Shown: positions 32,289 to 64,000 of the stretch, in pieces | How the letters are laid out: each line of letters opens with the position of its first letter | Numbering within the stretch: the stretch's first letter is position 1 | NCBI GenBank assembly: GCA_037042915.1 | Contig: CM073200.1 | Coordinates: 1,364,001 to 1,428,000, forward strand | Direction: 5' to 3' | Source of the DNA: Auricularia sp. M13 | Lineage: Eukaryota > Basidiomycota > Agaricomycetes > Auriculariales > Auriculariaceae | Length of the DNA: 64,000 bases | Notes under the pieces: model-generated | What the model was told of the DNA's origin: nothing | The model's input: only the letters and a program-made list of their open reading frames with translations | Database searches by the model: none | Position numbers and translations under genes: made by a program

Positions 32289-33065
32289 CTACCTCCACAG
32301 AGCTTGATCCCGATTATGCTCGTCTTCTATGGTCATGGCTGAAAGATACCGGCTGTTATAGTGAGTTTGTTGCCCTGATTGTGCGCAATGGCCGGCCACG
32401 GGTTCGTAAACTATTGGAACGTGCTCGTTGCAGCTATTCAGCGGCTGCGGCCAGTCGAAAGAAGACCGCATTGGCACCGTTCCGTAGTCAGGGCTGTGGA
32501 GATGGAAAGACTCGGGCGTAGCGATTATAGCGTCGCCGTAGGTGACTCCCGGAGAGAGGCTGAGGATGGAGGACTCGACGCTCCCGGGGCACTGCGGCAC
32601 GACTCCTCCGAAGCGCGGGACATCACTGCAAGGGAAACACGCCGGGAGATAGCTCGTGCCAGAGGTAGCACATATGCCAATATCACATGCAGTCTCTCCA
32701 GGGCCAGATGGACTCCCAGTATCTGTGGCCGCTGGAGAATGCGTATTGCCACGCGCGCCGCTGGCAGGGAATTCTTTGGATATATAGCGTTGTGCTCGAG
32801 AGACAGACTGGGGAGGAACACCAATACTGACCAACTGCTCGCGCGACGCGTGCACAAGCGGCTGCGTGATTCGCCCGCCCGCGTTCATGTACGCGACCTC
32901 CTTGCGCACATGGATCAGAACGTGGCGGGCAACATCTTCCTCCCGCTTGAGTTGGCGTCCACACGGTCTCCCGTCGAGGCTGAGAGGGTTGATGTACATG
33001 CAGTGGCCGCGAATAGCGGATGGCATAGAGGACGGGGTGCTTGTGTTGCGAGGTTCGCGAGGCAT
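32289..33065 (-). CDS. Single-finger C2H2 protein, GVP-spacer family
   Basis: Taken from the ATG at 33065 (MPREPRNTSTPSS); 258 residues, no intron needed. One finger C-x12-C-x12-H-x3-H (CMYINPLSLDGRPC, then KREEDVARHVLIH), wider than a standard C2H2 at the cysteine pair. It is followed by LVSIGVPPQSVSRAQRYISKEF and a Ser/Pro-rich tail with no second finger. The open frame extends upstream to 33266; the nearer ATG is preferred because it sits just before the finger, as in the 40-kb paralogue. Likely nuclear, DNA-binding or a degenerate regulator; targets unknown. Confidence 0.7.
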   Translation of the reverse strand: MPREPRNTSTPSSMPSAIRGHCMYINPLSLDGRPCGRQLKREEDVARHVLIHVRKEVAYMNAGGRITQPLVHASREQLVSIGVPPQSVSRAQRYISKEFPASGARGNTHSPAATDTGSPSGPGETACDIGICATSGTSYLPACFPCSDVPRFGGVVPQCPGSVESSILSLSPGVTYGDAIIATPESFHLHSPDYGTVPMRSSFDWPQPLNSCNEHVPIVYEPVAGHCAQSGQQTHYNSRYLSAMTIEDEHNRDQALWR

Positions 33066-33655
33066 CGTGTGTTGTTCTCGACTGAGAACGTCAGTCAGAG
33101 ATTTATAGCCATCCGTCGAGGCTCCCGACGCTGGGCAGGCCTCGTGTGCGGGAGTCCTACCACTCTCCGTTCTAACACGGTGCTCTGTGGCATTGCAAGA
33201 CGTCGGTGAAAGGACGAGCAGGGGCGGTACAGCTTCACAGACAGTGCCACAGACATCCCACTGCACGAGTACCCGAGCACTGCAGCACTACACACCAGAA
33301 TAACAAAGTTTGATCTTCCTTCATAGCGAATCCGGAGACGAAGATAGGTTTATTATGCGCGTATTTGGCCTGCCGTGGCGGTGAGAGATGCCTCGTTCTC
33401 TCCCGCCTACTCCCGCCGAGCGCCGAAAGCTCCCGTCACGTCAACGAGCGCTACTTTGAGGCGCACATAAGACACCTCTCCGCCAGTCACGGAAGGGACG
33501 TGGGAATCTCAGAGTGAGTTCGGGTGTAGCTAAGTCAAGCAGTGCGTTGCGCCGGATGCATTCAGTGGTACAGGCTCAATTCCCCCCTACAGATACAGGA
33601 TCGGGACAACGATCCAAGATTCAAATCCCTCGGTTGGGCGCCGATTCGTAAAGCT
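33066..33655. other. Intergenic region between the C2H2 gene and the MFS transporter
   Basis: No feature supported in about 590 bases. Confidence 0.4.
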
Positions 33656-39350: not shown

Positions 39351-39908
39351 ATGCGCAATTCTACTCTGGCTTTCGACCCCGGCGGCGACACGCCGATTGT
39401 TCTAGTGCTCGTCACTCGACGAGCACGTACGGGAAACACATCGAGTGTACGCTCAGTCATCTTATTGCGCTGCTGGTCGCTCATAGATGCGTTGAAGATC
39501 GTACAGGACGCTGCCCCATCACGCTACCAGATTTTGCTCGAAGGTCAGGATGAACCTCTCATCTGCTCTCTGATCCTGACCTGCGTCAGCGACGTGGTAC
39601 GTTCAACTTTCAATCCTGATTTGACTATGAGCTCACCCTTGTGATAGGAATTATGGTTGGATCGCACCACGACCGCAGAAACACTCCTCCCGCTTGAAAA
39701 TTCAGTATCAGCTGCGATATTGAACGCGGTTGAGGAAGTCATGCGTGACTGGGAGATCCAAGCACCACTCGTGTTTGCAGTCTACGGAGGTTCTACGGCA
39801 GAGCGAGGTCAAACTCGTACACGGCGATGGAACACTCGCCCGAAGGGCAGATTCAAAGATACCACAGCACAGTCGGTATGGGTCCCCCTGTGTTTCTTGC
39901 CATACTAG
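39351..39908 (+). CDS. Small hypothetical protein upstream of C2H2 gene
   Basis: Exon 1 39351-39596 (MRNSTLAFDPGGDTPIVLVL..., LLRCWSLIDALKIVQDA, YQILLEGQDEPLICSLIL). A GT-AG intron 39597-39647 joins in phase 0 to exon 2 from 39648 (ELWLDRTTTAETLLPLENSV, VEEVMRDWEIQAPLVFAVYG). The 3' end is uncertain: exon 2 stays open to 39908, but the last 30 codons look less protein-like and may be an intron or UTR. The TATA at 39282 supports the start. No known domain. It lies about 70 bases before the downstream C2H2 ATG in the same orientation, so the two may share transcription or be one fused model. Confidence 0.55.
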
Positions 39909-39979
39909 CTAATTTCTACGTTTGTCAGAGTGACAAACCGTTGACTACAATTTTACCACCGCGCATAGATCAGATCCAG

Positions 39980-40891
39980 ATGGCAGACAACGCCTCAACG
40001 CTCGCAGAAGGGCTACAGACCGCCAACTCCTCTAGCGGTCGCATAACCTGCGTTTACATCGATCCTGTGACAGGAGCTCGTTGCAACGACGTGTCCAGTC
40101 GCCCCTACGATGTCGCAAGACACCTCAGAGTCCATGTTCGGCGCGAGGACAGCTACGATGCGTCAAATATCTACTTTTCACCGCGACTGCGAGACTCAGA
40201 CCCTCAGCGCTTGATGGACTTGGGCGTTCCTCGCAAGTCGGCCATCAGCGGATCAGCAGCGAGTGCCATGCTCGGCGACAACAAAGCAGCTCGCAACCAA
40301 AGGAGGCGCACCGGGGAGCGTGCAGCTTTGCCCCGTCGCAAGAGGAGAGGTGCGCATGCCGTCGCAGACGCGCTTGCCGTACCCGGGCAGGCGGGGCCAT
40401 CCACCGGTAGTTTCGCCGCCACGAGAAACGCATCCCTCGAAGCTCATACCAGTCCGACTGAACCCGTGCTCGCCTTTCCAGAAGTCACATTTGATGCCAC
40501 TTCAACAGAAGCATCGTTTCTCATACCGCCTGACAACAACCTCACATGGACCGACTTGTTCGGCGAGGACATACCTGCGACCACCGTATCCTCCAGATAT
40601 AGCCCACTCCCGTTTCCTTCCAGCGACCCCATGTACGCTCCAGACATGTGTGCGTGTCCGCGCACCGGCTCTCCGCACCTATCACTCATTATGAATGAAG
40701 TCGGCGACCACGAACCCTTGCGATGCGCGCTGGATGATATGAGTGCGCCGTTCCCTTTCGATGAATGGGGAATGCTTCCCCCACCACTCCCTCTGGGCGA
40801 GTTGGCGCAGCCTGACGCAGGAGGCGTGGGCGCAGTGGACGCAGGAGGTACGGGCGCAGAGGGCGTTCTACGGTCTCTGACTTTTACTTAA
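39980..40891 (+). CDS. Single-finger C2H2 protein, GVP-spacer family
   Basis: Start MADNASTLAEGLQTANSSS; 303 residues. Finger C-x10-C-x12-H-x3-H: CVYIDPVTGARC, then SSRPYDVARHLRVHV. Next RLMDLGVPRKSAISG, the spacer motif, but the following helix is altered and there is no second finger. A basic patch (NQRRRTGERAALPRRKRR) looks like a nuclear localisation signal. The tail is Ser/Pro/acidic, with WTDLFGEDIPAT resembling an activation region. The upstream frame is open to 39827 but reads as leader sequence. A transcription-factor role is inference from finger plus NLS. Confidence 0.78.
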   Translation: MADNASTLAEGLQTANSSSGRITCVYIDPVTGARCNDVSSRPYDVARHLRVHVRREDSYDASNIYFSPRLRDSDPQRLMDLGVPRKSAISGSAASAMLGDNKAARNQRRRTGERAALPRRKRRGAHAVADALAVPGQAGPSTGSFAATRNASLEAHTSPTEPVLAFPEVTFDATSTEASFLIPPDNNLTWTDLFGEDIPATTVSSRYSPLPFPSSDPMYAPDMCACPRTGSPHLSLIMNEVGDHEPLRCALDDMSAPFPFDEWGMLPPPLPLGELAQPDAGGVGAVDAGGTGAEGVLRSLTFT

Positions 40892-49525: not shown

Positions 49526-51114
49526 TCAGCTGAACACCTTTTCGAAATACTCGCGCACATCGTCGCCAGCGTAGCCAACGTACATATCTGGTCGTATTAC
49601 GACGAAGGCAGCATCTCCCGCATCTACTGGCGACGCATCCGGCACGTTCGTAATACGCGTGTAGGTTTTCGACGCCTCAGGTGCCGCGCCGCCCGATACA
49701 TCCCAGGTCTCCGAGAGTTGTGCCCATTTGGCTCCCTCAGGTGGACCGCCCCAGGACTTGCCCGCAAGAGCGAGTATGACGAACTTGCCGTACTGGCCCT
49801 GGAGCACGCTGTATAGCCGCTGGCCCTCGCCATCCTCCGCGGCCGAATGCAGAAACACGTCAGGCATCCGGTGGCCTGGCCAGAAAATGCCGTGCGGTTG
49901 GCCGCTCACGAGCGCCGTCGAGCCTTCTGGGTACGCCACACCCATGCCCGTGATGTACCCGGCGTTCTTCTGGATGAGCTTGACGTACTCCTCGGCCGTC
50001 CGGACGGTGCTGCGCACCAGCTTCGCCGCGACGTCGATGACGCCGACGGCGCACGTGCGGCGCTCCGTCTCGTAGCTCTGCCATATGGCGTCTGTCGCGT
50101 GGCCCTGGAGCGCGAGGCTGAGGCGCCACGCCAGCGCGAAGCCGTCAGCCAGACCCGTGTTGAGCCCCTGGCCGCCGTTGACGCTGTGGATATGAGCGGC
50201 GTCGCCGGCGAGCGCGATGTGCCGATGCGGCGAGAAGTACGTGCGTGCAACACGCTCCTTGACCTCGAAGATGCTGAACCACTCGGTCCTTAGGAAGTCG
50301 ACGCGGTACGGCGTGAGGAATTTGCGGATTTCCTCCTCGATGCGCGGCTGCTCGGCGATGGAGTTGTCCTCGAGGAGCGTGTAGAAGCGCGCCATGCCGC
50401 GCTCGCGTGGGATCCACGAAATGCGCGCCTGGCCGCGGGCCTCGAAGGTGATGATCTCGGGACAGACGGGGAAGTTGGTGTCGATGAAGGTGTCGAGGAC
50501 GTGCCAGACCATGTTGGGCTTGTCGCCCTCGAACGGGATACCCAGGGCGTTCCGCACCATGGACTTCGCGCCGTCCGCGCCGACGGCGTACCGGCTACGC
50601 ACGACCTTGTCGGCGAACCGGGTGCGCACGAAGACCTCGCCGTCGACTTCGACCTCCTCGATCCCCAGTGCCTCGTGGTTGTGGTGGCATTCTGTGTCGA
50701 GCAACGTGTGCATCGCAGCCTCGACGTCGGACTGGCCGATCATGAGGAAGTTGGGCCGCGCGCAGTTCTTGAGCGTAACCCACCAGGCGTTCTGGCGCGA
50801 TGCGAAGCGCCCGTTGGAGAACGTCGAGCTCGTGTTGCACTTGAGCCCCTTCGACTCCAGCTTGTCCAGTACGCCGAGGACCTCCAGCGTCTGCTGGCTG
50901 CGCGCATTAAGCGCATCCGCACGCCCAACTGGCAGCGAGGTGGGCGCCTTATCCGCGATGAATACCGAGTGGCCAAGCTGCCGCAGGAGGATCGCGACGC
51001 TCAAACCGGTGGGACCGGCTGCCACCAGTAGACTTCAGTAACGACCCCACAGGTTGTTGGACCGCGCTCACCGCCCACAATCGTAACGTCCGCATACACC
51101 TCCTCGATGGTCAT
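49526..51114 (-). CDS. FAD-dependent aromatic-hydroxylase-type monooxygenase (PheA/TfdB group)
   Basis: Two exons, 51114-51072 and 51018-49526; 511 residues. Uses NAD(P)H and O2 to hydroxylate an aromatic or related substrate. The dinucleotide fold IVGAGPTGLSVAILLRQ is rebuilt across a 53-base intron, which fixes the start MTIEEVYADV. The DG motif VGADGAKSMVRNALG and the FAD motif HIALAGDAAHIHSVNGGQG followed by LNTGLADGFALAWRL are intact. A thioredoxin-like C-terminal domain is plausible from the 511-residue length. Divergent from the isocyanide synthase gene with about 1.16 kb between starts, so the two may be co-regulated and act in one pathway. Substrate unknown. Confidence 0.92.
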
Positions 51115-52275
51115 CTTGGAATGGGGGAATGGTCCCTCCGGACGGGATATCGCGGGGAATATGGCCTCTGCATCGCTTAGATGATCCAATCCTGATCGTC
51201 GTGCGTGTCAAGACAGCGCTATTTGGCATTATTTGTTTGACTTTCCGCCATGGTATCCTTCCGTATTCTCTTGTGGCTGGTATTTATTGCGACCCCCGTC
51301 TGCACGTCGCGGGACAAGGTGCAAGCGTCTGGCGGAATCGGGGAGTTCAACTAACAAGCACTTACCGAACCCCAACTGTCTGCTATCTTGATAGGTACCA
51401 CCTCAGAGCACGGATCAAGTTGCTGTTCAGTGTTCACAAGAATCTGGCAGGCAAATTGCACGCAGACCGCTCGTTCCCTCAGTTTTTTTTTTTTTTTTTG
51501 CAATCCTGCAAGAGTAACAAGTGCGTTGGCATAAGTTATGAAGCATGTACTCTCCCTGACCTCCACTCTGGCACTCACACCTTCAGCACATGCCTGCGGA
51601 TGGCGCAAGGCTTTGCACAGATACGCCGTTCTAATATTGGGCCCGGGATATACATTGTATGTCAGCAAGAAGGCGCCGGTGATCATACCTACATGTGCTC
51701 GACGAGGATGCGACAGGCTCCGCAGCACCTTCTCGGAAGGAACTTCGCTCTTTCAGCAGCTCCGACTCCATGCATGCATGGCACGGCTGTGTTCGCGTCA
51801 GGATTCGAGAACAGTGTCCGCGCGCCGGTACCTGGTTGCAATCCTAATGTGCATAGTCTAAACGAAGAGCAAGTACGCTTTCCTCTTCAGCTTCAGTGGA
51901 ATTCACAGCCTGTTACTCGTGTGGACTCTTTGGTGCGTCTCATTCGGGCGTCTTATGCACTTGCGTCTCGGGTTTTCTGAATTGCTTTCAATTGTTCCAG
52001 GGTCAATAAGTATCGACATGGACTCATGGATCTATGCGCGATAATATCAAACCTCCTATCACGTACCATCCTTTCATCGCCATCATGTTCGTGACACTGG
52101 CGCGACGAAGGCGTTTGTCAACAACGACCGGTGATGAGCTCGCATGCCTTGTGAATCCCAACTGTCAGTGCCGTATATCTCGGTACCCTCATTTGCCGGG
52201 CAGAATCTCTTCGTTTCATTTCTTCTTCTTCTTCCTCCTTTCATATTCCCTGTGGCATAGATTCGCGCAACAGGA
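51115..52275. other. Divergent upstream region between flavin monooxygenase and isocyanide synthase genes
   Basis: No supported gene (a long plus-strand frame at 51129-51980 has no protein-like composition). It holds a T run at about 51,483-51,500 and a pyrimidine-rich tract at 52,220-52,250 just before the isocyanide synthase start, a common core-promoter feature in filamentous fungi. Confidence 0.5.
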
Positions 52276-54268
52276 ATGGCTGCAGCAAGCTCGACTACGC
52301 ACACGGCAGAAGCCATCCTCGCGGTCGTGGAGTCGTACCGCCTCAAGGCATCCCCGTTCGACCCCGCGATCATACCCCGGAGCCGCGAGACGTTTTTACC
52401 GCTCATCCAGAGCGCTGTCGAGCAGCAGAAGCCCGTTTCGTTCACGCTCCCTGCATTCCCGTTTAAATCGCCCAATACCACCGATAAGGTGCTGGGCGTC
52501 CTCCCAGACAAGGCGGAGGAACTGTCGCTGTTGCACCTTCAGGGGTTCTGCAACAACATTAAAGACGTTTACCTGCACGGCGCCGAGCTGACTATCGTCT
52601 CCGATGGTATCGTGTACAACGGTGCGTTGTTTCGCACGAACGAGGTTGCAGATCGGAATGTTGAACGTGAATTTGCAGACCTCTTAGGCGTTGCGGACGC
52701 GACGGTATGGGCGTACGGCGAACGATTGCGCGCGATGGCATCCGAGCTCTCGTGCGGGTCGCTGCGGTTCGCCCGGCTGGCGACCATGCTCAAGGGGAAG
52801 CTGCCCGCGGACGTTCTGGAATACCACGACACGGACAGCTACGAGAAGGCCGCGCCGGTTGTGCGCGAGACGCTGGTCGCGGAGTATGCCACGCCCGGCT
52901 ACGACGTGTCCACGGACATTGCGCAGGACGAAAGCGTCAAGGCGACGTACCGGGGGTACCTCAAGTACCTCGCGAACGACTTGGCGGAGGCGCTCGACGT
53001 GTCCGACGGCGCGTCTAACTGCTCCGGCGCCTCCGACTCGTCCGACGCGTCGACCGGCAGCAGGAAGGCGTTCAAGCGGCGAGTATCCAAGGTCGCAAAG
53101 CAGATGATTGCGCGCGGCAAGGTACGTAGACAGAGCGAGTTACTGTGGACGCGAGACTGATTGTGGCGTGCACCAGTGCTATGCTGCATGCGTCAAGGAG
53201 GCCTTCCCTGACCATGTGCGGCTGTCGATACACGCCGCCAACAGCGCGACTAAGATACCGATATCCGTCGTGCCCAACGCGGCCAACAGGCCCGTCACGC
53301 CATGGCACTGCGTAATGACCTGTCGGCTGGACGGCGAGCTCGTGCCCATGACGCGCAAGGACGCCGCGGCGCGCGATGACCTGGAACTGGTGCAACAGGC
53401 GGACGGTCGGCTGTGGTGCTACCGCGAGAAGTCGGCGCTTTATGACCCCTTCATCGCGGCCGGCGCGTCCATCGAACACACGTACCCGTGCGGCCTGCTC
53501 ATCACCTTCCCGCGCGGCACGCCGTTCGCAGCCGCGGACATGAAGGCGACGCGCGGGCTGTCCGACTACAACTCGCCCGTCGTCCTGCGTGGGCTGGCCG
53601 GTACGACGGATCGCGCGGCATTCCTCGCCAAGGGGCGCGAGATGGGCGAGATCATGAAGTGGAAGTTCGGCGAGCTGCTCGAGGTCAAGGACGGCGGCGA
53701 GAACACGCGCGGGCTGAACAACGTGCTTAGCACCGAGCCGATGCCGTTCCACTACGACGGCCTGTTCAAGATGGTCAACGGCGTGTCGACGCCGCCGCAC
53801 TACCAGATGTTCGTCGCCGTCACCGCGAGCCCGAAGGGCACCGGCCACACGCTCTTCGCGTCGTCCGCGCGGCTGTTCCAGCACCTGCACGGCTGGACGG
53901 CCGAGTCGCTCAAGCCGCACACCTTCCGCGTCGACTCAGAATCGTTCGAAGGCTCTCATTTCGGCAAGCTGCCGCTCGTCGTCGAGCACCCCGTCACGGG
54001 CGTGCCCTGCATCCGGTACCACGAGGACTGGCCGCAGGAGCGCACCCGCTTCCAGGAGACGCGCATCAACATAGAGGACGTCGACGCACCGACAAATGTT
54101 TCCATCCGCACAGAGCTGGAACGGGCGCTGTACGACTGGCGCGTTTGCCTTCGTATTGGCTGGGAGCAGGGTGATATCCTCGTCAACGACAATATCCTGA
54201 ACATGCACACGCGCGAGGGGTATACGTCCCAGTTCGGCCGCGAGCTGTGGCGCTTGCACGTAGACTAG
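52276..54268 (+). CDS. Fused isocyanide synthase (PvcA/DIT1-like) and 2-oxoglutarate/Fe(II) dioxygenase (PvcB/TauD-like)
   Basis: Two exons, 52276-53121 and 53177-54268; 645 residues. The N-terminal module (to about residue 385) matches PF05141: TAEAILAVVESYRLKASPF, VLGVLPDKAEELSLLHLQGF, SDGIVYNGALF, TYRGYLKYLANDL and the family end VRLSIHAANS...KIPISVVPN...TPWHCVM. Such enzymes turn an amino acid into an isonitrile. The C-terminal module is a TauD-like dioxygenase with the iron triad HYD (His 474, Asp 476) and His 626 (NMHTREGYTSQFGRELW), which could desaturate or decarboxylate the isonitrile product. The start has a good context (GGAATGGC). Divergent from a flavin hydroxylase and followed by C2H2 regulators. 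The amino-acid substrate cannot be told from sequence. Confidence 0.93.
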
Positions 54269-54836
54269 ATGTAGCAGGTCCTTTATATAAGGCACGGCGG
54301 TGTGAGCTCGACCCGCTGCGCATTTGCACGAGCAAAAATCTCTGGTCGAGGCGTAGAGCAAGAGAGAACCGCCGGTATCATTCGCTTCAGACAAAGCCAT
54401 TGATATTAGCTGGATGATCACGCCCAAGGCGCAGGTCTACGGACGGGCGTTTCGTCGGTGACGGAGGGCATCTCCAGATGTGCGAAACGCGATCCCATGA
54501 TAATTCCAGACTGCAAGAAACGCCTCGAGAGAGCAGAATTCGAGACAATGACACCCATATTTAAGCCGGAGTCACGTGAAAAGGACATTTGACTCCCCCG
54601 CACACACGATACGGCGTATTGACCCGGATGATTGTGGTAAAAGGGAGAGTGACGGAGGCAAACCGACGCCTATCCACAAGTTTAATTCCAAAGCCCGAAG
54701 TATTGGTATCTGAGAGGGAAAGACGGTATAAGATGCTTATCAATTCTAACGTTACGAATACAGTGCGAAAGCAGGCATGGTTACTAGTGTACATGAGCAG
54801 AGAAAATGCGGAGCACGAGGGCGAGGTAAACGTCTA
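54269..54836. other. Convergent region between isocyanide synthase and C2H2 gene
   Basis: About 570 bases with no gene; the 3' regions of two convergent genes. Confidence 0.5.
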
Positions 54837-55598
54837 TTATGCTTCATGACTCGCAGCCCAAGTAGCAATGAGAGTCTCCCAATCGTCTAGGGAAGGCAGC
54901 TCCAACGCCGGAGCCAGTTCCAGAGGGAGCGGCCATGCGTCTTGGTTGGCTGGTATCGACGACGGCGTGTCGAAGAGGTCGAGCCCCAAGTCGACACTCA
55001 CGCCCAATGCCGGCGGGGACGCGGTAGGTCCCAATCCCAGTCGAGACAGGAACTCGTCGACCGGTATCATAGGGTCGAGGAACTCTCCTGGCTGCGCCGG
55101 CGGCAGCGGCGCAGGGGCGGGAGAGCCGTGTTTCTGCTCGATCTCGTGCCGCACGAGCGCGTCGCGGCGACTGAACGCCTTGCCGCACCGTGCGCACCGG
55201 TTCGTCCTCTCCAGCAGCTCGTGTACGCGGTAGACAAGGTCGCTCGGTACGCCGGCACCCATGATGTCTTCGTCGCTCGCGGAGGCGACGGAGGAATGAT
55301 GCGCGGAAACAAGATGCCGGATGAGGTCGTAGGGGCGAGTGTATGACTTGGTGCACCCAGGTAGACGGCAGGGCCAGCGTACGGCGTTAGATGGCGGCGT
55401 GTGCGAGGATGCAGGGGATCCAGCAGAGGTGGATGACGGTGATCCAGATGCCGACGGGGAATCGCTTGAGGATGGCGAGCGTTGATATGGTGCGGTAGTT
55501 CGCGCTGTGCGCCTATGTTTTCGCGGGGGTGCAGAAGGGGCTTGCGATGTTGTCGCTGAGGCGGCCGAAACTGCATGGGAGGTTGAGTGCGGGAGCAT
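54837..55598 (-). CDS. Two-finger C2H2 regulator, GVP-spacer family
   Basis: Single exon, 253 residues, from MLPHSTSHAVSAAS. Finger 1 C-x4-C-x12-H-x4-H (CRLPGCTKSYTRPYDLIRH...HH), then a spacer with MGAGVPSDLVYRVHELLERT, then finger 2 C-x2-C-x12-H-x5-H (CARCGKAFSRRDALVRH). A basic stretch APPRKHRRTARTT before the fingers is a probable NLS. The tail ends LPSLDDWETLIATWAASHEA, shared with the paralogue at 58 kb. Convergent with the isocyanide synthase gene; a cluster-specific regulator is a reasonable inference. Confidence 0.85.
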   Translation of the reverse strand: MLPHSTSHAVSAASATTSQAPSAPPRKHRRTARTTAPYQRSPSSSDSPSASGSPSSTSAGSPASSHTPPSNAVRWPCRLPGCTKSYTRPYDLIRHLVSAHHSSVASASDEDIMGAGVPSDLVYRVHELLERTNRCARCGKAFSRRDALVRHEIEQKHGSPAPAPLPPAQPGEFLDPMIPVDEFLSRLGLGPTASPPALGVSVDLGLDLFDTPSSIPANQDAWPLPLELAPALELPSLDDWETLIATWAASHEA

Positions 55599-57990
55599 AG
55601 TTGTCTAGACAGCTCGTGAGGTCTGTAATGCCGATGCCCGTCAGCATCCTGCAATCTCTCCCCAACGCATGTGACTTTGAATAGATCTCACCTGTGATCG
55701 ACAGCGGCGGTTCGATGTTGGACTTGTACGGCTTGCCTGGCAACAATAAGAAGGTGGTTAGTACAACGGCAACGTCGCAGTGTAAGGTACCACGCACGAA
55801 CTGATAATTTTGGACCTGAACTCTCGAGTGCGAATGCTGCGATGAAGAATGCGAATTCGAACCATTAGCCATCTGCCCTGACGCGCAAAAAGGTGGAGAC
55901 TTACCAACTACGAGAGCAGGAGGGCGCTCCTGCCTCGATGCCCGCAGGCATGTCGACGTCGAGTGTATAGTCACCTGCATCAGGGGATAACTCTGGCGTT
56001 GCGCGCTGACGGTTTTTCGGGGCGTATGGAGGACGCCTTGGGTGGCGGTGAAAGCCTCTTGCCAGCTTATAACCGTTTCCCGGGCGCCTAATCCGGCCGG
56101 ACGCGTCACGCGCGGCGCCGGATCGACCGCCGTGATTGGCTCAGCCTTTGCGCGCCTATTTGGCCACCGGTTCAGATCGGCGGCAATTCTGCACAAAATG
56201 AAAAGGCCTAGGATATCCACGATTTCGTGAGACGGCGGGATTGGATTGATTCCACAAGATACACATGCTGACAGTGAGTAACATTTTTACTCATTCTTGT
56301 GTCTACAATTGCACACCAGGCTAGAGCCGCGAATGATATCTTCAAAACATCCATGGCATATGCGAAGGAGACCAGACTGGAAGGTATCTCTACGCATTTC
56401 TAGAAACTATACGATACAGCGCCACAGAAACATTGTTTCAGACAAATACTGTACATGCATAGCATCTTCAGCTATTGGACTTGTGGCTCAGCGCGTAACA
56501 TGGTCGCGAACATGTCCTTGTTCTCCTTCGTGGCTGGTTCCGAGTCCGTGTATTCTGTGTCGTTGTGGGTACCCTAGTGATAGGGACTGCACGGTCGAAA
56601 ATGTGAGACTGAGATTTGAGCTGGGCTCTGGAGGTCTGGGATTCTGGATTATACGTGGGAAGACCACAACATGTGAGCTGTCAATGTGTACATGGCGCTT
56701 AAAGCCACGAGACCATAGTCTCGGCTCCCCCAACCGCCGCACCTGACAGTGCACCCGAAGCCTCCCTTATCGCAGTCTACTCTGACTCCACATTCTGCAC
56801 ACCTAGGCCTCGAGCCTCGGGGATCAGCAGCCAACGGCCCAGTAATGTCCGATAACCCAGTGCACCGCTGCGCCCAACTCGCCTCGGGCAAATGCTTGTA
56901 AGTACAGTACTAGTAGGACGCCGACTCCCGAGTGCATTGCACGCGGCGGACTCGGAACTCAGTCCCTCAACAGTCCAACCACCCACACACACAAAGGCGG
57001 CACAGTCAGCTACTGTTCCACGCACCAGGCCATCTGCGCCGTCGACGGGAGGCTGTACCAGAAGGCGGCCGGGTGCGGCGGCTGCGAGTTGCGTGCGCAG
57101 TGAGTCGGTTCCAGGTTGTAGTCTGGGCTCAGATTGATCATTTCGCTACTGCAGAGCGCGCGCGGATAACCTCGCGATGATGCTGCTGGCGCTCGGCCGG
57201 GGGTCGTGAACGCAGTGCGCTTGCACAATCACACGCCACGAGACTGGGAGATGGTGTTACTATGAGTCTCTCTGCGCGGGACGGCCAATGAATTGCCCAT
57301 GTACAGTATGAATGTCGAGTCCAGCTTCAAGTGAAGTCGTCTCCGAAATAAAGGGCGTCAAAGTAGCGTCACAGCCCAAACTACTCCCTCCTGCCTTTAG
57401 CATCAGCAAGGATCGCGGGCCGAGATTAAATCTCTTGGAAACGAGGGGAGCGAGGGATAACTGATTTAAGCTGTGCGACTTGGTTCCGAGAACAACTTGA
57501 ACGTCGAAGATCAGCGCTCAGCTGGCCCGAGTCTGTGCATAAGAACGACTCGATGCAGCGTCGCGCAAAAGCACCGTGTACAGCGCGGGACAGGCATCAG
57601 ACGAACACCAGATTCCTAGAGTGCCAGAAACGCGCTGACAGCTTCCGGAGGCAACTTAGGCGGGAGCGTTCCGAAGTTGTCCCAAACATTCCGTGATAAC
57701 ATTTCCAGTCCAGGCTTTGCAGACGGATAACGTTCGCCATGAAGAGAGACACGAGACAGACAGCATGAGCGATTATAATCTATGCATTTCTTGCGGAGAG
57801 GTAGCGAGGTAGAGAAAGAACGAAAGAGGCAATACAAGTACACAGCTTCAGATAAAGCAGGACGAGACGAGATAGCGGGATTAAGATCGCGAGTCAGAGA
57901 CGTATACACAGCGGGTTGACCCAAAGCAAGGCAAGGCAAATTTTTGACGAAGAAGCTCGGATGAAGAGCGCGGCACCCTCAGAGACGTCG
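55599..57990. other. 2.4-kb region between two C2H2 genes
   Basis: Mostly upstream region of the 54.8-kb regulator. At 56,850-57,104 on the plus strand there is cysteine-rich, possibly spliced coding sequence (NPVHRCAQLASGKC; then GGTVSYCSTHQAICAVDG, KAAGCGGCELRAQ and a TGA) that could be a small secreted protein, but start and splice sites do not resolve. Nothing else supported. Confidence 0.35.
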
Positions 57991-59073
57991 TCAACTGCTC
58001 TCCGGCTGCGCCTGCGCCCAGGAGGTGATGAGCGCCTCCCAGTCAGCGAGCGACGGCATGCCCGGCATCGACAGCGGCGCGTCGGCGTCCGAGGCGGGGA
58101 AGGCGAACGCGTCGGCGTCGCGCAGCAGCGGCGCGTCGGGTACTGGCGCAGGCGGGAGGTGCATGTCCAGCGGCGACATCGTCATCGGCATCGGCATCGA
58201 GGCGACCGCATCCAGGTCCAAGTGCAAGCCGAGGTCCAGGTCCGGCGCAATGACAGGCGCGGGCGCGGGAGCAGGAGCTGGCGCAGCATCGGGCACGGGC
58301 ACGGGTACGAGCGCCCACTGAAAACCGGGCGGGGGTGCCCCGGCGGGCTGCTGGACGACGACCACATCCGGCTGCGCAGGGACGCGCCGGTGGCCCTGCT
58401 CGTCCATATGCCGGACGAGCGCGTCGCGCCGGCTGAACGTCTCGCCGCACACCTCGCACGCGTTCCGGCGCGCGAGCAGCTCGCGCACGCGCGCCACGAG
58501 GTTGAGCGGGACGCCCGCGCAGAGGATCATGCCGTCGAGCTCGGCGGAGTGGGAGGAAGAGAGGGCGGCGTGGTGCGCCGAGTCGAGATGGCGCACGAGG
58601 TCGTGCGAGCGGCCGTACGACTTGGTGCACCCCGGCATGCCACAGGGCCAGCGTTTTGCAGTTGCTTGGGGAGGGGGTGGGGTGGAGGATGATGAGGATG
58701 ATGAGGTTGGGGAAGCAGACGAGGAGGGAGACGCAGACGAAGAGTTGGAAGAGGAGGATGCGCGTTCAGAGACAGACGGGGTATACGGCTTCGGCCGCGC
58801 CTGGCGATTACGCTTGCGCGGCGGCGCGCATGCCACCGTCGCTGCCTGCGGCGTTGTGGCCACTACAGCATTGGAGAGCACATGAGAGAGGTTCGCGTTG
58901 GAGATGTAGAGCATCGTGGCGGGCGCTGGCGCAGCTGAAGTTCCAAGAACCGTCGTTGACGATGCAAGAACTGTTGGCGTCATTCCAGGAACCGTGCTGG
59001 ACGATGCAAGATCTGTCGGCGTAGTTCCAAGGAACATTCTGTGGTGGGAGGGCGAGGGCTGCTGCTGTGTCAA
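57991..59073 (-). CDS. Two-finger C2H2 regulator, paralogue of the 54.8-kb gene
   Basis: Single exon, up to 360 residues from the ATG at 59073; the ATG at 58914 (MLYISNANLSHVLSN) aligns with the start of the 54.8-kb paralogue and would give 307. Finger 1 CGMPGCTKSYGRSHDLVRH...HH, spacer LCAGVPLNLVARVRELLARR, finger 2 CEVCGETFSRRDALVRH. NLS-like APPRKRNRQARPK, a long Ser run, and an Ala/Pro/Asp-rich tail ending SLADWEALITSWAQAQ. The extra N-terminus holds a repeated unit (TPT.LASS.TV.G), so the longer form may be real or leader sequence. Same orientation as its paralogue, about 2.4 kb apart. Confidence 0.85.
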   Translation of the reverse strand: MTQQQPSPSHHRMFLGTTPTDLASSSTVPGMTPTVLASSTTVLGTSAAPAPATMLYISNANLSHVLSNAVVATTPQAATVACAPPRKRNRQARPKPYTPSVSERASSSSNSSSASPSSSASPTSSSSSSSTPPPPQATAKRWPCGMPGCTKSYGRSHDLVRHLDSAHHAALSSSHSAELDGMILCAGVPLNLVARVRELLARRNACEVCGETFSRRDALVRHMDEQGHRRVPAQPDVVVVQQPAGAPPPGFQWALVPVPVPDAAPAPAPAPAPVIAPDLDLGLHLDLDAVASMPMPMTMSPLDMHLPPAPVPDAPLLRDADAFAFPASDADAPLSMPGMPSLADWEALITSWAQAQPESS

Positions 59074-59961
59074 GGTGCCTATGGCTTTCTGACTGCGGGA
59101 GCGCGCTCAGGTTGTGTAGCAATGTATTTGACGCGACGACTGCATGGCGGGCGGGTCAGAGACGGAGATAGCAACATGAACCAGCGCGACTGACATGAGG
59201 TGTCAAGATTCGAAGGAGACGCCTCCTCGAATGTCTGAGTCTGGAAGAGCGACGGCTCTTCAATCGTTTGAGTCGCAATGCTCGTGAGAGACGAGCGGGC
59301 TGCGAGCAGGTTCGAACACGCATATTTGCGAAAGAACGAGCAGGGCGACGCACGAGATGGGATTTCTGTCTTGACAAGCTCTTCCTTCAACGCACGAGAT
59401 ACTGTTTGTATCTTGATGAGTTCCTGCGTGTATCTCTTGTCGATCCCCTCGAATGAGAAGGCCGACGCTGGGAATGCATGGTCAAATTACTGCCCGCACG
59501 GGGAGTCGAACGCGCGACTTACCAGCGATAATAGCGTTCCAACCGTAGTCGCTGATCCAGGCCCCGAGCGCCGAACGGCGCACCGGGGATCGAGCGGGCA
59601 TTTGCTGCAAGCTTCGGCGGTCCTGCGACCGCTGGTCGACGGGCATGCGGGGCGGGAGGGGGCGGGGGGAAAGGGGAAGGCGGGCGGCGCCGAATGACTC
59701 TGCAGAGGTTATAAAGCCGGACGCCGGAAGCTGTGCGCCGATCCGGCACAGCCTTGGGTGGCCAAATGCTCCCGCTTGGCCACCCTCGGTCCCGCGGAAC
59801 AACCACCATTGCTATCGTTCGTCTCAGCACCGCCGGGCTCGATGGGACTATGCCTTGGAGTGGTACTTGCGCAGGGCCAAATCATATTGTCTGAGGTCCA
59901 GCAATAGAGAGTACCTCGCATCCACAATACACAGTCCAAGACGATGGAGACATCACATCTA
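59074..59961. other. Intergenic region upstream of C2H2 gene
   Basis: About 0.9 kb without a supported gene. A GTTCGACTCC sequence near 59,510 (minus strand) looks like a tRNA B box, but the surrounding stems do not pair. Confidence 0.4.
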
Positions 59962-61642
59962 TTATACAGCGGAGTCTGTGCGATCTACTTCTACCTTATG
60001 CCCGTTATCAGCCGTCACACTGCCACCTGGAGTGCGAGTAGATCTGGAAGCAATGCCTACGGTTGTACATTCAATCCCAAACTGTGGGGTCACCCCTGCC
60101 AGTGCAACTTCTTTTCCCTGATTATGGCCACCAACCTCGGGTGAATTTAAAAAAAAAAAAACAGATGGCCGTTGAGCGGCTGATCTAGAACCAATTCGAG
60201 TAAACCTTCAATCCCGAACTGAGGTCGTTCTCTTACCTGGAGCACAATCATCCCGCGCACGGGAATAGACGCGGAGGCGGGTTTCACCCTTGTGAGAGGA
60301 AGACTGTATGTCGTGGTATAGGAACCGAGAATCTCGGACGCCGAGTGTGGCTGAGAGACGCCAATAGCTGCACTTGAGTTGCCGCTATGGGAGGCCGCCA
60401 GTGCTTTCTAAGGCTGATTCAAAACGATAGCTCTGCACCAGGCGTTACAGCAGTGACAGTACTTACCGCAATATTTTCACGAACTTGATCCATCGTCGGT
60501 CTCTCAGCGGGGTCGTATTTCCAGCAAGCGAAGCACACGTCCCACAACTCGTCGCTCAACCCCAAAGCCGTGACTTCAGGCTCCGGGCGCGTGTGGACAT
60601 GCCCATTCAGGACCATTGACACCACGACATATTGATTGTGCTCCGGCCAGGGGTGCTTGCCAGTAAACGCCTGACAGGATTCAATTTCAAGGAACGCTCG
60701 CGAGGGGTAAGACATGGCGCGTTACCTGGAGAATTAGCATGCCGAAGGCGTAGATGTCTGTCTCGTGGGTCTTCGATCGTACACTGCCGTTCGAAGATCT
60801 TGCATCCTCAAGCAACAGCTCCGGTGCCGCAAATCGAAGAGTGTTCCACCTGCGGATCGAGGACATCGTTGTCCCCTCCGATTCAGGTTTGTCGATTAGG
60901 GTACTGAGGCCGAAGTCCGTCAAGAGCGCATTGCCTTCGTCGGAAACGAGCACATTCTCCTGCATATGTGAATGCTGTTAGCTGGCGTTTCCCACCCCCC
61001 ATAATTCTGAATCGTAAACTAACGCATTTGAGGTCTCCGTGTACCATTCCCAGGCTCTCATGCAGATGATAAACGGCGTCGGCGATTTGAAGAAGCTACA
61101 TAATAGATCAGAAAGGCGGAATTACGTGACTGGGCGGCCGTACCAGCAACGGCCTATTGGCGGAGGGATGGTTGGAAAGATATTGCAGAAGGTTGCCGTG
61201 CTTCATGAAGGGCGAGACGATGACGACTACATCGTCCAGATCCGCCGCAGCGCCGAAGCATGGAAGAATAAAACGGTGTCTTGCTCGTCGTATCGCACGA
61301 AGCTCGCGCCGGAGTCGCTACGTACGATTTAATTCGATGCATATCAGCTTCTTGGTATAGTGAACGTACCTCGCGGGCAGATTCATTCTCCTGCGTCTGT
61401 CGGATGACTTTGACGGCAACTTCTAGCCGGTCACCATCGATGAGCTCCAATTCGCCTTTGAGGATGCACGATGTGCCGCCCTTCGCAACGGCATTTGACG
61501 TTATGAGAACAGCGAACTGTTTTTCGATCCGGTGATCGTCTTCGTCTTCGTCTTCATCGAACAAGTCCGCCGTTACGATGTTGCCCTTGTTTATCACTAC
61601 AAAGCTGTAAGGATATAACAAGGCCTCGAAACTGTGAGACAT
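59962..61642 (-). CDS. Protein kinase, fungal TKL-like
   Basis: Exons 61642-61370, 61317-61144, 61095-61024, 60959-60726, 60670-60467, 60407-60237, 60117-59962; 427 residues if the last two are right. Kinase signatures: glycine-loop region AVAKGGTSCILKG, VAVKVI (ATP lysine), SPFMKHGNLLQYLS, HGDLKCENVLVSDEG (HGD in place of HRD, usual in this fungal group), LTDFGLST, RFAAPELL, DIYAFGMLILQ, CWKYDPAERPTMDQV. An acidic run DLFDEDEDEDD lies before the domain. The last two exons give a Ser/Gly-rich tail with no domain and are less certain. Probably an active serine/threonine kinase; its pathway is unknown. Confidence 0.83.
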
Positions 61643-62364
61643 ACTTGTCTGAGCCATATATGAACGGCTGTGGTGAAAAGGTCTGTAGGGAATCGAACGT
61701 CGAGGATGCGTGGGGCGACGTGGGGTGTTGTGGGCAGGCAAAGGAACGAGGCTGGCGTGTTTCACAGCGTCCAAACAGCGCTCGTGGCCTGCTCCCGATC
61801 GCATTTCCGACCGCTGCACGGCCGAGTTGAGACGTGCTCGCATTCTGAACATAGCCGCCACACGTGCCGGGAATGCACGTTGGCGCTGACATTGGAATGT
61901 GCAGCTAGGTTCTCGTGAATGGGTTCCCTAGTTATTACTAGTCACAAGCAGCCGCTTAGCGTGTCTGTGTAAGGCATTTGGTAGTTAACGAGGTTGGTGG
62001 GTGCATTGGCAGGAGGCAGACAGGATTGGTACCCCGACGATGCCGCCGTCGACGCTACCGTGACCTACCTACCTCCCTCTTACAAACTACAGCATCTTGT
62101 GCAGTCGCATACGTTCTCCCCGAGACCTCTTCTGATGCCTGTCTGCTTGGATTCAAAACGATACCGAGCGCGACGCGCGTTTGAGCGAGCCCGGGCCCTT
62201 GGCATATAAACGCAAACACCTCTAGTCGTGCAGCGATCAGTTCCGCCAGGCCATGGCTCGAGTTTCCTGGATAACTACTGTCTCTGGCTTTTGGTCTGGA
62301 TTGCACGAAGAACTATGTACTCTAACAACAATATGGAATCTGAAGTATGCCTGCCGTCCTTTTT
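61643..62364. other. Intergenic region between kinase and flavin monooxygenase
   Basis: Upstream region of the kinase and downstream region of the monooxygenase. No feature recognised. Confidence 0.45.
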
Positions 62365-63546
62365 TCATGTCTGCTTGTTCCAGCGCTCCTTGGCGGCCTC
62401 TCCGATGTTATCCCACATCTCGCTTTCAGGCTCGTAGAACGCTCCCTTGGTCGCGCCATCAGTCTCTTCCGCGTCGACAGCTGCAATCGGCGCAAAGTCC
62501 TTCTCCCACTGCGCGACTGCCGCATCCAACTCCTCGAGCGACTTGCCGCGGGCGGATACGATAGCCTCTCCGAGAAGGCGCGCGCCATGCGTGCCGATGT
62601 TGGCGCCCTTGCCCGCGAACGGCGTCATGAGGTGGAACGCGTCGCCGACGATGGTGACGCCCCTGCGGTGCGGCCACGTGTGGCCGACGGGCATCTGGTA
62701 CAGCGTGCGGCTGACGAACGAGCCCTCGTCGCCCGCGAGGATGAAGTCGCGCAGGTACGGCGCCCAGCCGCCGAAGTGCTCCATAATCTTCTTCACGGCG
62801 TCCGCCTGGCTCAGGCCGTGGAACGCCCTCTCGTCCGGCGTCGCGATCCAGGTGTACGCGCGCACGCGCCCGTCGCCGCAGTACTGCGCGTAGATGCACT
62901 TCTGCTGCGCGAACGCGTAGACGGTGCCCTTGCCGACGCGCGCGGCGAGCTCGGGGTGCTCGCTCGCCCTCCACGAGACCTCGAACCCGTTCACGCCAGT
63001 GTAGACCGGCTTGGTGTTGCTCACGAGCGGGCGCACGCGCGAGCGCCCGCCGTCCGCGCCGATGAGCAGGTCGACGACGGTCTTGTGCCCGTTGGCGAAC
63101 GTCAGCTCCCACTCGTCGGTGCCCGCGACGGGCGCGGCGGAGACGAACGCGTGCCCCCACTTGATGCTGCCCTCCGGCGCGGCGTCGACGAGAATCTTGC
63201 GCAGCACGGGGCGGTCGATCTCGGGCCGCTGCGGGTTCTCCTCTTCGTCGGGCGGCGTGAACTGGTAGAGCGACTCGCCGGTGTGGTTCGTCATGACCGC
63301 GAGCGCGCCCTCCGGCCGCCACACCTTGCGGTACACGTCGCCGACGCCCGCCGCGATGAGCGCCGCCTGGCCCGTGCTGACGTGCAGGTCGAGCGAGCCG
63401 CCGAACGTCGCGCGCGAGGTGATGTCCGCGTCGCGTTCGTAGAGCGTGGCTGGCACGCCATGGCGCACGAGGACGTTCAGAACGACGAGGCCGACTGGCC
63501 CGGCGCCGATGATAGCAATGCGCGGCGTCTTCGACTGTTCAGACAT
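62365..63546 (-). CDS. TetX-like FAD-dependent monooxygenase
   Basis: Single exon, 393 residues from MSEQSKTPRIAIIGAGPVG; an upstream ATG at 63582 would add 12 residues but lies before a better start. Group A flavin monooxygenase: nucleotide fold IAIIGAGPVGLVVLNVL, the FGGSLDLHVSTGQ motif typical of TetX and relatives, DG motif LIGADGGRSRVRP, and FAD-ribityl motif VTIVGDAFHLMTPFAGKGAN. The length matches TetX-type enzymes (about 390). Such proteins hydroxylate or epoxidise diffusible small molecules and can detoxify antibiotics. Very GC-rich compared with its flanks. Could serve the isocyanide locus 8 kb away, or act alone. Confidence 0.92.
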   Translation of the reverse strand: MSEQSKTPRIAIIGAGPVGLVVLNVLVRHGVPATLYERDADITSRATFGGSLDLHVSTGQAALIAAGVGDVYRKVWRPEGALAVMTNHTGESLYQFTPPDEEENPQRPEIDRPVLRKILVDAAPEGSIKWGHAFVSAAPVAGTDEWELTFANGHKTVVDLLIGADGGRSRVRPLVSNTKPVYTGVNGFEVSWRASEHPELAARVGKGTVYAFAQQKCIYAQYCGDGRVRAYTWIATPDERAFHGLSQADAVKKIMEHFGGWAPYLRDFILAGDEGSFVSRTLYQMPVGHTWPHRRGVTIVGDAFHLMTPFAGKGANIGTHGARLLGEAIVSARGKSLEELDAAVAQWEKDFAPIAAVDAEETDGATKGAFYEPESEMWDNIGEAAKERWNKQT

Positions 63547-64000
63547 TGTGTTGCTGTGCAAGAATCGTCGTCTTGCGACCACTCACTTTAAATGTCTCAA
63601 CGCTCCCTGAGTCGAGCCCTGCACGCGTAAGCGTGGAAGTGTGCCGGCAGCATACCCGGCCATTTTCGACCAGTCGGCGAATGTTGAATCTCAAGGCTAC
63701 GCGCAAGCCTTGCCTTTGCATTTTTCGAGGATCGGCATGAGAGCCACAATCAGAGTGACCTTTTGTAGCGGAACGCTGCCGCAGCCCAATCTTATCTGAT
63801 GACGCTTACCTAATGTTTTCCCCGAAATCCATCGGCGTTTGGATGCTGGCCCATAATTGGCAGTCTGAAGTCAACCCTGGACTGCTGAGTCGGTGGCCTG
63901 GACTGCTTAGAAAAGAGCGCATCCGGCACCGCGTGCTCACAGCCTAAAGTGGTGAGGAAAGCTTCTTTCCAACTCTCTGAGATTTCTCTGGTTCACTTAG
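63547..64000. other. Right-end region
   Basis: Upstream region of the TetX-like gene; no further gene visible before the window ends. Confidence 0.5.

Follow-up and report, generated by a model that had tools for sequence, protein, structure and literature searches.

A predicted vinyl isonitrile-forming fusion of isocyanide synthase and dioxygenase, present in two dispersed copies in Auricularia sp. M13

A 64,000-nucleotide stretch of the genome of the fungus Auricularia sp. M13 (C8:1364001-1428000, on contig CM073200.1; hereafter the window) contains at 52.3 kb a gene, here called ICS1, that encodes an isocyanide synthase (ICS) fused to an Fe/2-oxoglutarate dioxygenase (DOX). Sequence comparisons support this assignment well and place the protein in the known ICS-DOX (ICS-TauD) class. 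A search of the organism's own genome (52,096,326 bp in 14 contigs) revealed a single further gene with the synthase domain, ICS2, on contig 10. The explanation that accounts best for our results, and that we consider probable, is that ICS1 makes a vinyl isonitrile and is one of these two dispersed copies, the C2H2 zinc finger, kinase, and TetX-like genes beside it most likely not being conserved members of a pathway. ICS1 adds a new and so far unstudied member to a known class, and its locus already appears in a published table. The locus yields a corrected gene model and a product prediction that can be tested by assay, and ICS1 and ICS2 form a paralogue pair, separable for study, in a cultivated mushroom genus; the general picture of isocyanide synthases is unchanged by it.

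The initial annotation, made from the letters of the window, had proposed that the 52.3-kb gene joins a PvcA/DIT1-type synthase to a PvcB/TauD-type dioxygenase in one protein with its iron triad present. Pfam analysis bore this out. DIT1_PvcA (PF05141) matched at 8.8e-80, with 268.5 bits against a curated cut-off of 26.4, and TauD (PF02668) matched at 1e-26; both domains lie in one protein, in the order PF05141 then PF02668 by which the two-domain class is recognized. These scores were computed on a 645-residue model that still held intron 1. PF02668 was also detected at both ICS1 and ICS2 in the genome-wide search. Comparison of the corrected model with proteins in the PDB gave the same division of functions: the relatives of the N-terminal half included the isonitrile synthase 9dhm (4.3e-27) and PvcA (3e59; 7e-27), and those of the C-terminal half included 7tcl (1.2e-20) and PvcB (3eat; 3.9e-16). 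HxD...H is the general iron-ligand motif of this enzyme type, and the triad is indeed present, as H455, D457, and H607 of the 626-residue model.

The gene model of ICS1 (C8:1,416,276-1,418,268 in genome coordinates) required correction at its first intron. Because this intron is free of stop codons and its length is a multiple of three, a plain reading of the open reading frame (ORF) takes it as coding, and the uncorrected ORF consequently holds 19 extra residues directly after the SDG motif. ICS2 (C10:142,881-144,865; 624 residues) shares both intron positions, with a 56-nt intron at the place of intron 1 and a 54-nt intron at the place of intron 2. When intron 1 was spliced out, the ICS1 protein aligned to solved PvcA-type synthases without a gap across the junction.

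To predict the product, we compared the dioxygenase half with 7tcl. We take 7tcl to be PIsnB, a bacterial desaturase of the rhabduscin type, because its numbering fits the residues described for that enzyme. Those residues come from a study that describes the substrate-holding positions of PIsnB and associates K or R at 107 together with N or H at 188 with the vinyl-isonitrile type, and L together with C with the isocyanoacrylate type (PMC9467999). In ICS1, W425, H455, D457, G458, K461, H545, H607, and R622 align with PIsnB positions 74, 101, 103, 104, 107, 188, 250, and 265, and ICS2 carries the same letters at all eight. The equivalents of PIsnB W74, H101, D103, G104, H250, and R265, which make up the desaturase motif, are identical in both copies, and the two selectivity positions hold lysine and histidine in both (K461 and H545 in ICS1, K460 and H543 in ICS2), as in the vinyl-isonitrile type. 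On the strength of these two positions, we predict that ICS1 and ICS2 both give a vinyl isonitrile and that the C-terminal domain is a desaturase of the same kind as PIsnB; this is a forecast rather than a proof. In the corresponding scheme, the PvcA-like N-terminal domain would convert the amino group of an aromatic amino acid, most likely tyrosine, to an isonitrile, and the PIsnB-type C-terminal domain would then desaturate and decarboxylate it to the vinyl isonitrile. A flavin hydroxylase encoded divergently from ICS1 might later oxidize the phenol ring. Within this scheme we infer the substrate, the product, and the possible hydroxylase step.

That a flavin hydroxylase gene is divergent from the synthase had been noted in the initial annotation, and FAD_binding_3 matched its product at 2.7e-54; we corrected the gene to two exons and 511 residues, starting at the ATG at 51114 and interrupted by an intron at 51019-51071. 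A match to Rng_hyd_C (4e-5) fell under the cut-off of that family; both scores were obtained with the ORF that lacks exon 1. The best match in the PDB was VibO (7yj0; 1.4e-45), and besides the gene itself the genome contained 12 matches, of which just two are long, at 33 and 37% identity. VibO, from Boreostereum vibrans, is the closest solved relative by sequence, a group A flavin monooxygenase of a mushroom pathway, with a phenol ring as its target (PMC10257657). Its chain has 653 residues, against 511 for the hydroxylase here, and it forms an oxepinone in vibralactone synthesis (PMC10257657). By its position, the phenol-hydroxylase-like gene is a plausible partner of the synthase. A stronger version of this proposal is that the synthase and the hydroxylase constitute a compact two-gene pathway to a ring-oxidized (e.g., catechol) vinyl isonitrile, with ICS2 serving a different end product; we regard it as possible but unlikely. 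If true, it would be a route free of cytochrome P450s (P450s) and nonribosomal peptide synthetases that functionally parallels the bacterial pvc-type pathways, and the patchy presence of these loci (two listed in M13 and none in strain M12) would indicate fast gain and loss.

Three points weigh against a vinyl isonitrile as the product. First, the aromatic pocket is unlike that of PIsnB in both copies, with Y in place of W102, L or V in place of M105, and F in place of Y106; these three residues are not described as required for the reaction type, and the ring that is bound may therefore differ. Second, single swaps at both selectivity positions left the product unchanged, so the rule is only predictive (PMC9467999). 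Third, yeast Dit1 resembles isocyanide synthases, yet reportedly does not mediate isocyanidation (PMC7345447), and family membership alone is therefore no proof of the chemistry.

This last point leads to an alternative in which the first domain, like Dit1, makes formyl-tyrosine and the second desaturates it to an N-formyl enamide, to be used in wall or pigment. PF05141 is named after both DIT1 and PvcA, Dit1 is reported most likely to make formyl tyrosine (PMC7345447), and N-formyl tyrosine was accepted in vitro by both PIsnB and PvcB (PMC9467999). The solved relatives of the first domain, however, are named isonitrile synthase or PvcA, no Dit1 structure is among the matches, and, according to the accessible text of PMC10153163, there is no dit cluster in basidiomycetes; we judge a Dit1-like activity to be quite improbable. 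Plain dehydrogenation to an isocyanoacrylate, as PvcB carries out in the paerucumarin pathway, is very unlikely because the diagnostic positions of both copies hold K and H rather than L and C, even though PvcB and PIsnB have closely similar active sites and single swaps at the two positions did not switch the product (PMC9467999).

The presence of two copies in the genome could have been due to allelism. We ruled this out because one third of the residues differ between ICS1 and ICS2 (67% identity, 415 of 618 aligned residues). Nonsynonymous and synonymous divergence (dN 0.229 and dS 0.734, NG86) are compatible with constraint on both copies. If the surroundings of ICS1 formed a conserved cluster, genes related to them might be found around ICS2. 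We therefore took 84 kb surrounding ICS1, made up of the window and 20 kb beyond, and compared it by tblastn with 469 stop-to-stop frames of at least 60 residues drawn from the 49.9 kb that surround ICS2. All matches at E 1e-4 or better fell on the synthase gene, the sole DNA alignment covered 52,299-54,269, and no neighbor common to the two loci was found beyond the synthase in these 84 kb of contig 8 and 50 kb of contig 10. A conserved cluster is not supported by this comparison, since only the synthases are homologous. The initial annotation had suggested looking for the same neighbors around homologous synthases; the contig 10 paralogue shares none in the 50 kb compared, which is close to the unrelated surroundings that it had named as a refutation.

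The regions upstream of the two synthases were likewise no more similar than expected. In the 1161 bp upstream of each, sharing of 8- to 12-mers was near the expectation from 100 samples of a dinucleotide model: 44 shared 8-mers against 43.4 expected, 12 against 10.8 for 9-mers, 3 against 2.7 for 10-mers, 1 against 0.7 for 11-mers, and 0 against 0.1 for 12-mers. The sequence TTTGCTCA, which we take to be a copper element with GCTGD as its loose core, was absent from both 1161-bp regions; its absence says little because by chance alone a region this short would rarely contain it. The loose core occurs nine times in each region, which also says little.

We also looked for the accessory enzymes of known isocyanide pathways. 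The isocyanide-hydratase-like family PF01965 (DJ-1/PfpI) had no match within 1 Mb of ICS1 or ICS2 (all 21 candidates scored). P450s carry the haem motif FxxGxRxCxG, which none of the six frames contained, either in 84 kb surrounding ICS1 or in 50 kb surrounding ICS2; an intron-split motif would escape this search. Among the matches listed (92 of 288 candidates scored), the P450 closest to ICS1 is 0.88 Mb away and the one closest to ICS2 is 0.28 Mb away. In the xan cluster of Aspergillus fumigatus, by contrast, an isocyanide-hydratase homologue, XanA, and a P450, XanG, accompany the synthase (PMC5974471). The synthase of that system, XanB (also IcsB), is the same two-domain ICS-DOX fusion as ICS1 (PMC5974471).

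These results bear on the view of the initial annotation that 49.5 to 63.5 kb is an isocyanide-metabolite locus, in which the synthase, two flavin monooxygenases, and two C2H2 regulators are co-regulated. The hydroxylase is divergent from the synthase at a distance of 1.16 kb and has no close paralogue that we found in the genome, all three C2H2 relatives found genome-wide sit at the ICS1 locus, and an MFS transporter gene (PF07690) lies at 34.5-35.1 kb, within the bounds of a published antiSMASH cluster described below. Set against this are the paralogue without any common neighbor in the 50 kb compared, a TetX-like family spread over about 24 genomic places, a kinase gene that interrupts the stretch, a C2H2 trio that extends past the window, and the failure to find a P450 or DJ-1/PfpI gene near ICS1. 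The enzyme part of that proposal stands; the cluster part is weak except for the divergent hydroxylase, and we give a co-regulated cluster of this composition a slim chance.

Both synthase loci are in a published table. Table 2 of PMC12113221 gives, for Auricularia sp. Qinling M13, antiSMASH isocyanide cluster 22 (Ctg8 1,397,656-1,436,913; core gene M13_g11536.t1) and isocyanide cluster 29 (Ctg10 123,365-153,057; core gene M13_g7341.t1); ICS1 lies within the former and ICS2 within the latter. The accessible text of that paper only lists these clusters; of the three occurrences of the word isocyanide, one is a count and the other two are in the table. For M12, the sister strain, that table has no isocyanide cluster, against two for M13; the alternatives are gain, loss, or a difference in gene calling. 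More broadly, Lim et al. defined monodomain, ICS-DOX, and ICS-NRPS forms, reported that the ICS-DOX form exists in both bacteria and fungi, and detected ICS proteins in four species of basidiomycetes (PMC5974471). Nickles et al. assigned 36.2% of fungal ICS proteins to the ICS-TauD type and named basidiomycetes with five and six ICS clusters, with up to six per genome (PMC10153163). The initial annotation had called basidiomycete examples little described. This does not hold for their detection, given the counts in PMC10153163 and Table 2 of PMC12113221. It may hold for their chemistry. In a literature search at the level of titles and abstract openings, we found no report tracing a basidiomycete isonitrile to its synthase.

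Among bacteria, the synthase and dioxygenase of the PIsnB and PvcA-PvcB (paerucumarin-type) systems are separate solved proteins, unlike the fused ICS1. A fused bacterial form does occur in a plasmid collection, as a 617-residue Burkholderia stagnalis protein matching both halves of ICS1. A single scan of a genome contig collection for bacterial relatives gave six stretches that matched the pattern, none of which was confirmed. On the Hymenobacter plasmid pHsw1 (L015:2209-7223), genes annotated as isonitrile synthase, TauD dioxygenase, and FAD-dependent oxidoreductase stand in a row, a loose bacterial parallel to three functions in the window.

The features around ICS1 are collected in Table 1.

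Table 1. Positions of ICS1 and neighboring features, in window numbering
Feature	Position	Strand	Details
Group A flavin monooxygenase, phenol-hydroxylase/VibO-like, 511 aa	49526..51114	-	exons 51072-51114, 49526-51018
Upstream region common to hydroxylase and ICS1, 1161 bp	51115..52275	.	from both gene models
ICS1, ICS-dioxygenase fusion, 626 aa	52276..54268	+	exons 52276-52621, 52679-53121, 53177-54268
ICS1 intron 1, 57 nt	52622..52678	+	in frame, stop-free
ICS1 intron 2, 55 nt	53122..53176	+	GT...AG
C2H2 zinc-finger protein a, 253 aa	54837..55598	-	zf-C2H2 1.4e-8
C2H2 zinc-finger protein b, <=360 aa	57991..59073	-	zf-C2H2 2.2e-8; first in-frame ATG at residue 13
Protein kinase gene with introns	~60419..61861	-	PF00069 4.7e-9 on ORF 60687-60965; outer bounds approximate, from ORFs
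TetX-like flavin monooxygenase, 393 aa	62365..63546	-	FAD_binding_3 5.3e-14 on ORF 62365-63582

The two C2H2 genes downstream of ICS1 had been described as paralogous, in agreement with a blastp value of 1.7e-40 between their products. As genome queries, each found three matching places counting itself, all at this locus; the third relative (C8:1433801-1434385, with the match at C8:1433870, or about 69.9 kb in window numbering) is on the + strand beyond the TetX-like gene. The trio could mark a local regulator family. Equally, it could be a tandem family that merely lies here, because the C2H2 relatives continue past the kinase and TetX-like genes. Two further proteins of the window, at 32289-33266 (-) and 39827-40891 (+), can be aligned loosely with the two C2H2 proteins, at identities of 18 and 26% with the one encoded at 58.0 kb; neither had a Pfam match. 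The kinase gene, which was absent from the initial annotation, sits between C2H2 gene b and the TetX-like gene and is probably unrelated to the synthase finding.

The TetX-like flavin monooxygenase at the end of the stretch was correctly recognized from the outset. Its closest matches in the PDB included AbsH3 (6n04; 5.3e-54) and TetX2 (about 1e-37). A genome search with it gave 30 matching stretches, its own among them, spread over about 24 places, and the presence of one such gene beside a synthase is therefore weak evidence. Contig 10 carries six of these in the interval from 64 to 291 kb, and the two closest to ICS2 are about 37 and 44 kb away from it. Some of the matches may be two haplotypes of one gene. 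In the TetX-like and P450 searches, pairs of nearly equal matches were observed between contigs 9 and 12 (e.g., C9:221270/C12:927151) and within contigs 11 (e.g., C11:353253/C11:2114843) and 2. These pairs suggest that the assembly contains duplications or haplotypes that were not collapsed; the reported heterozygosity of M13 is 2.34%.

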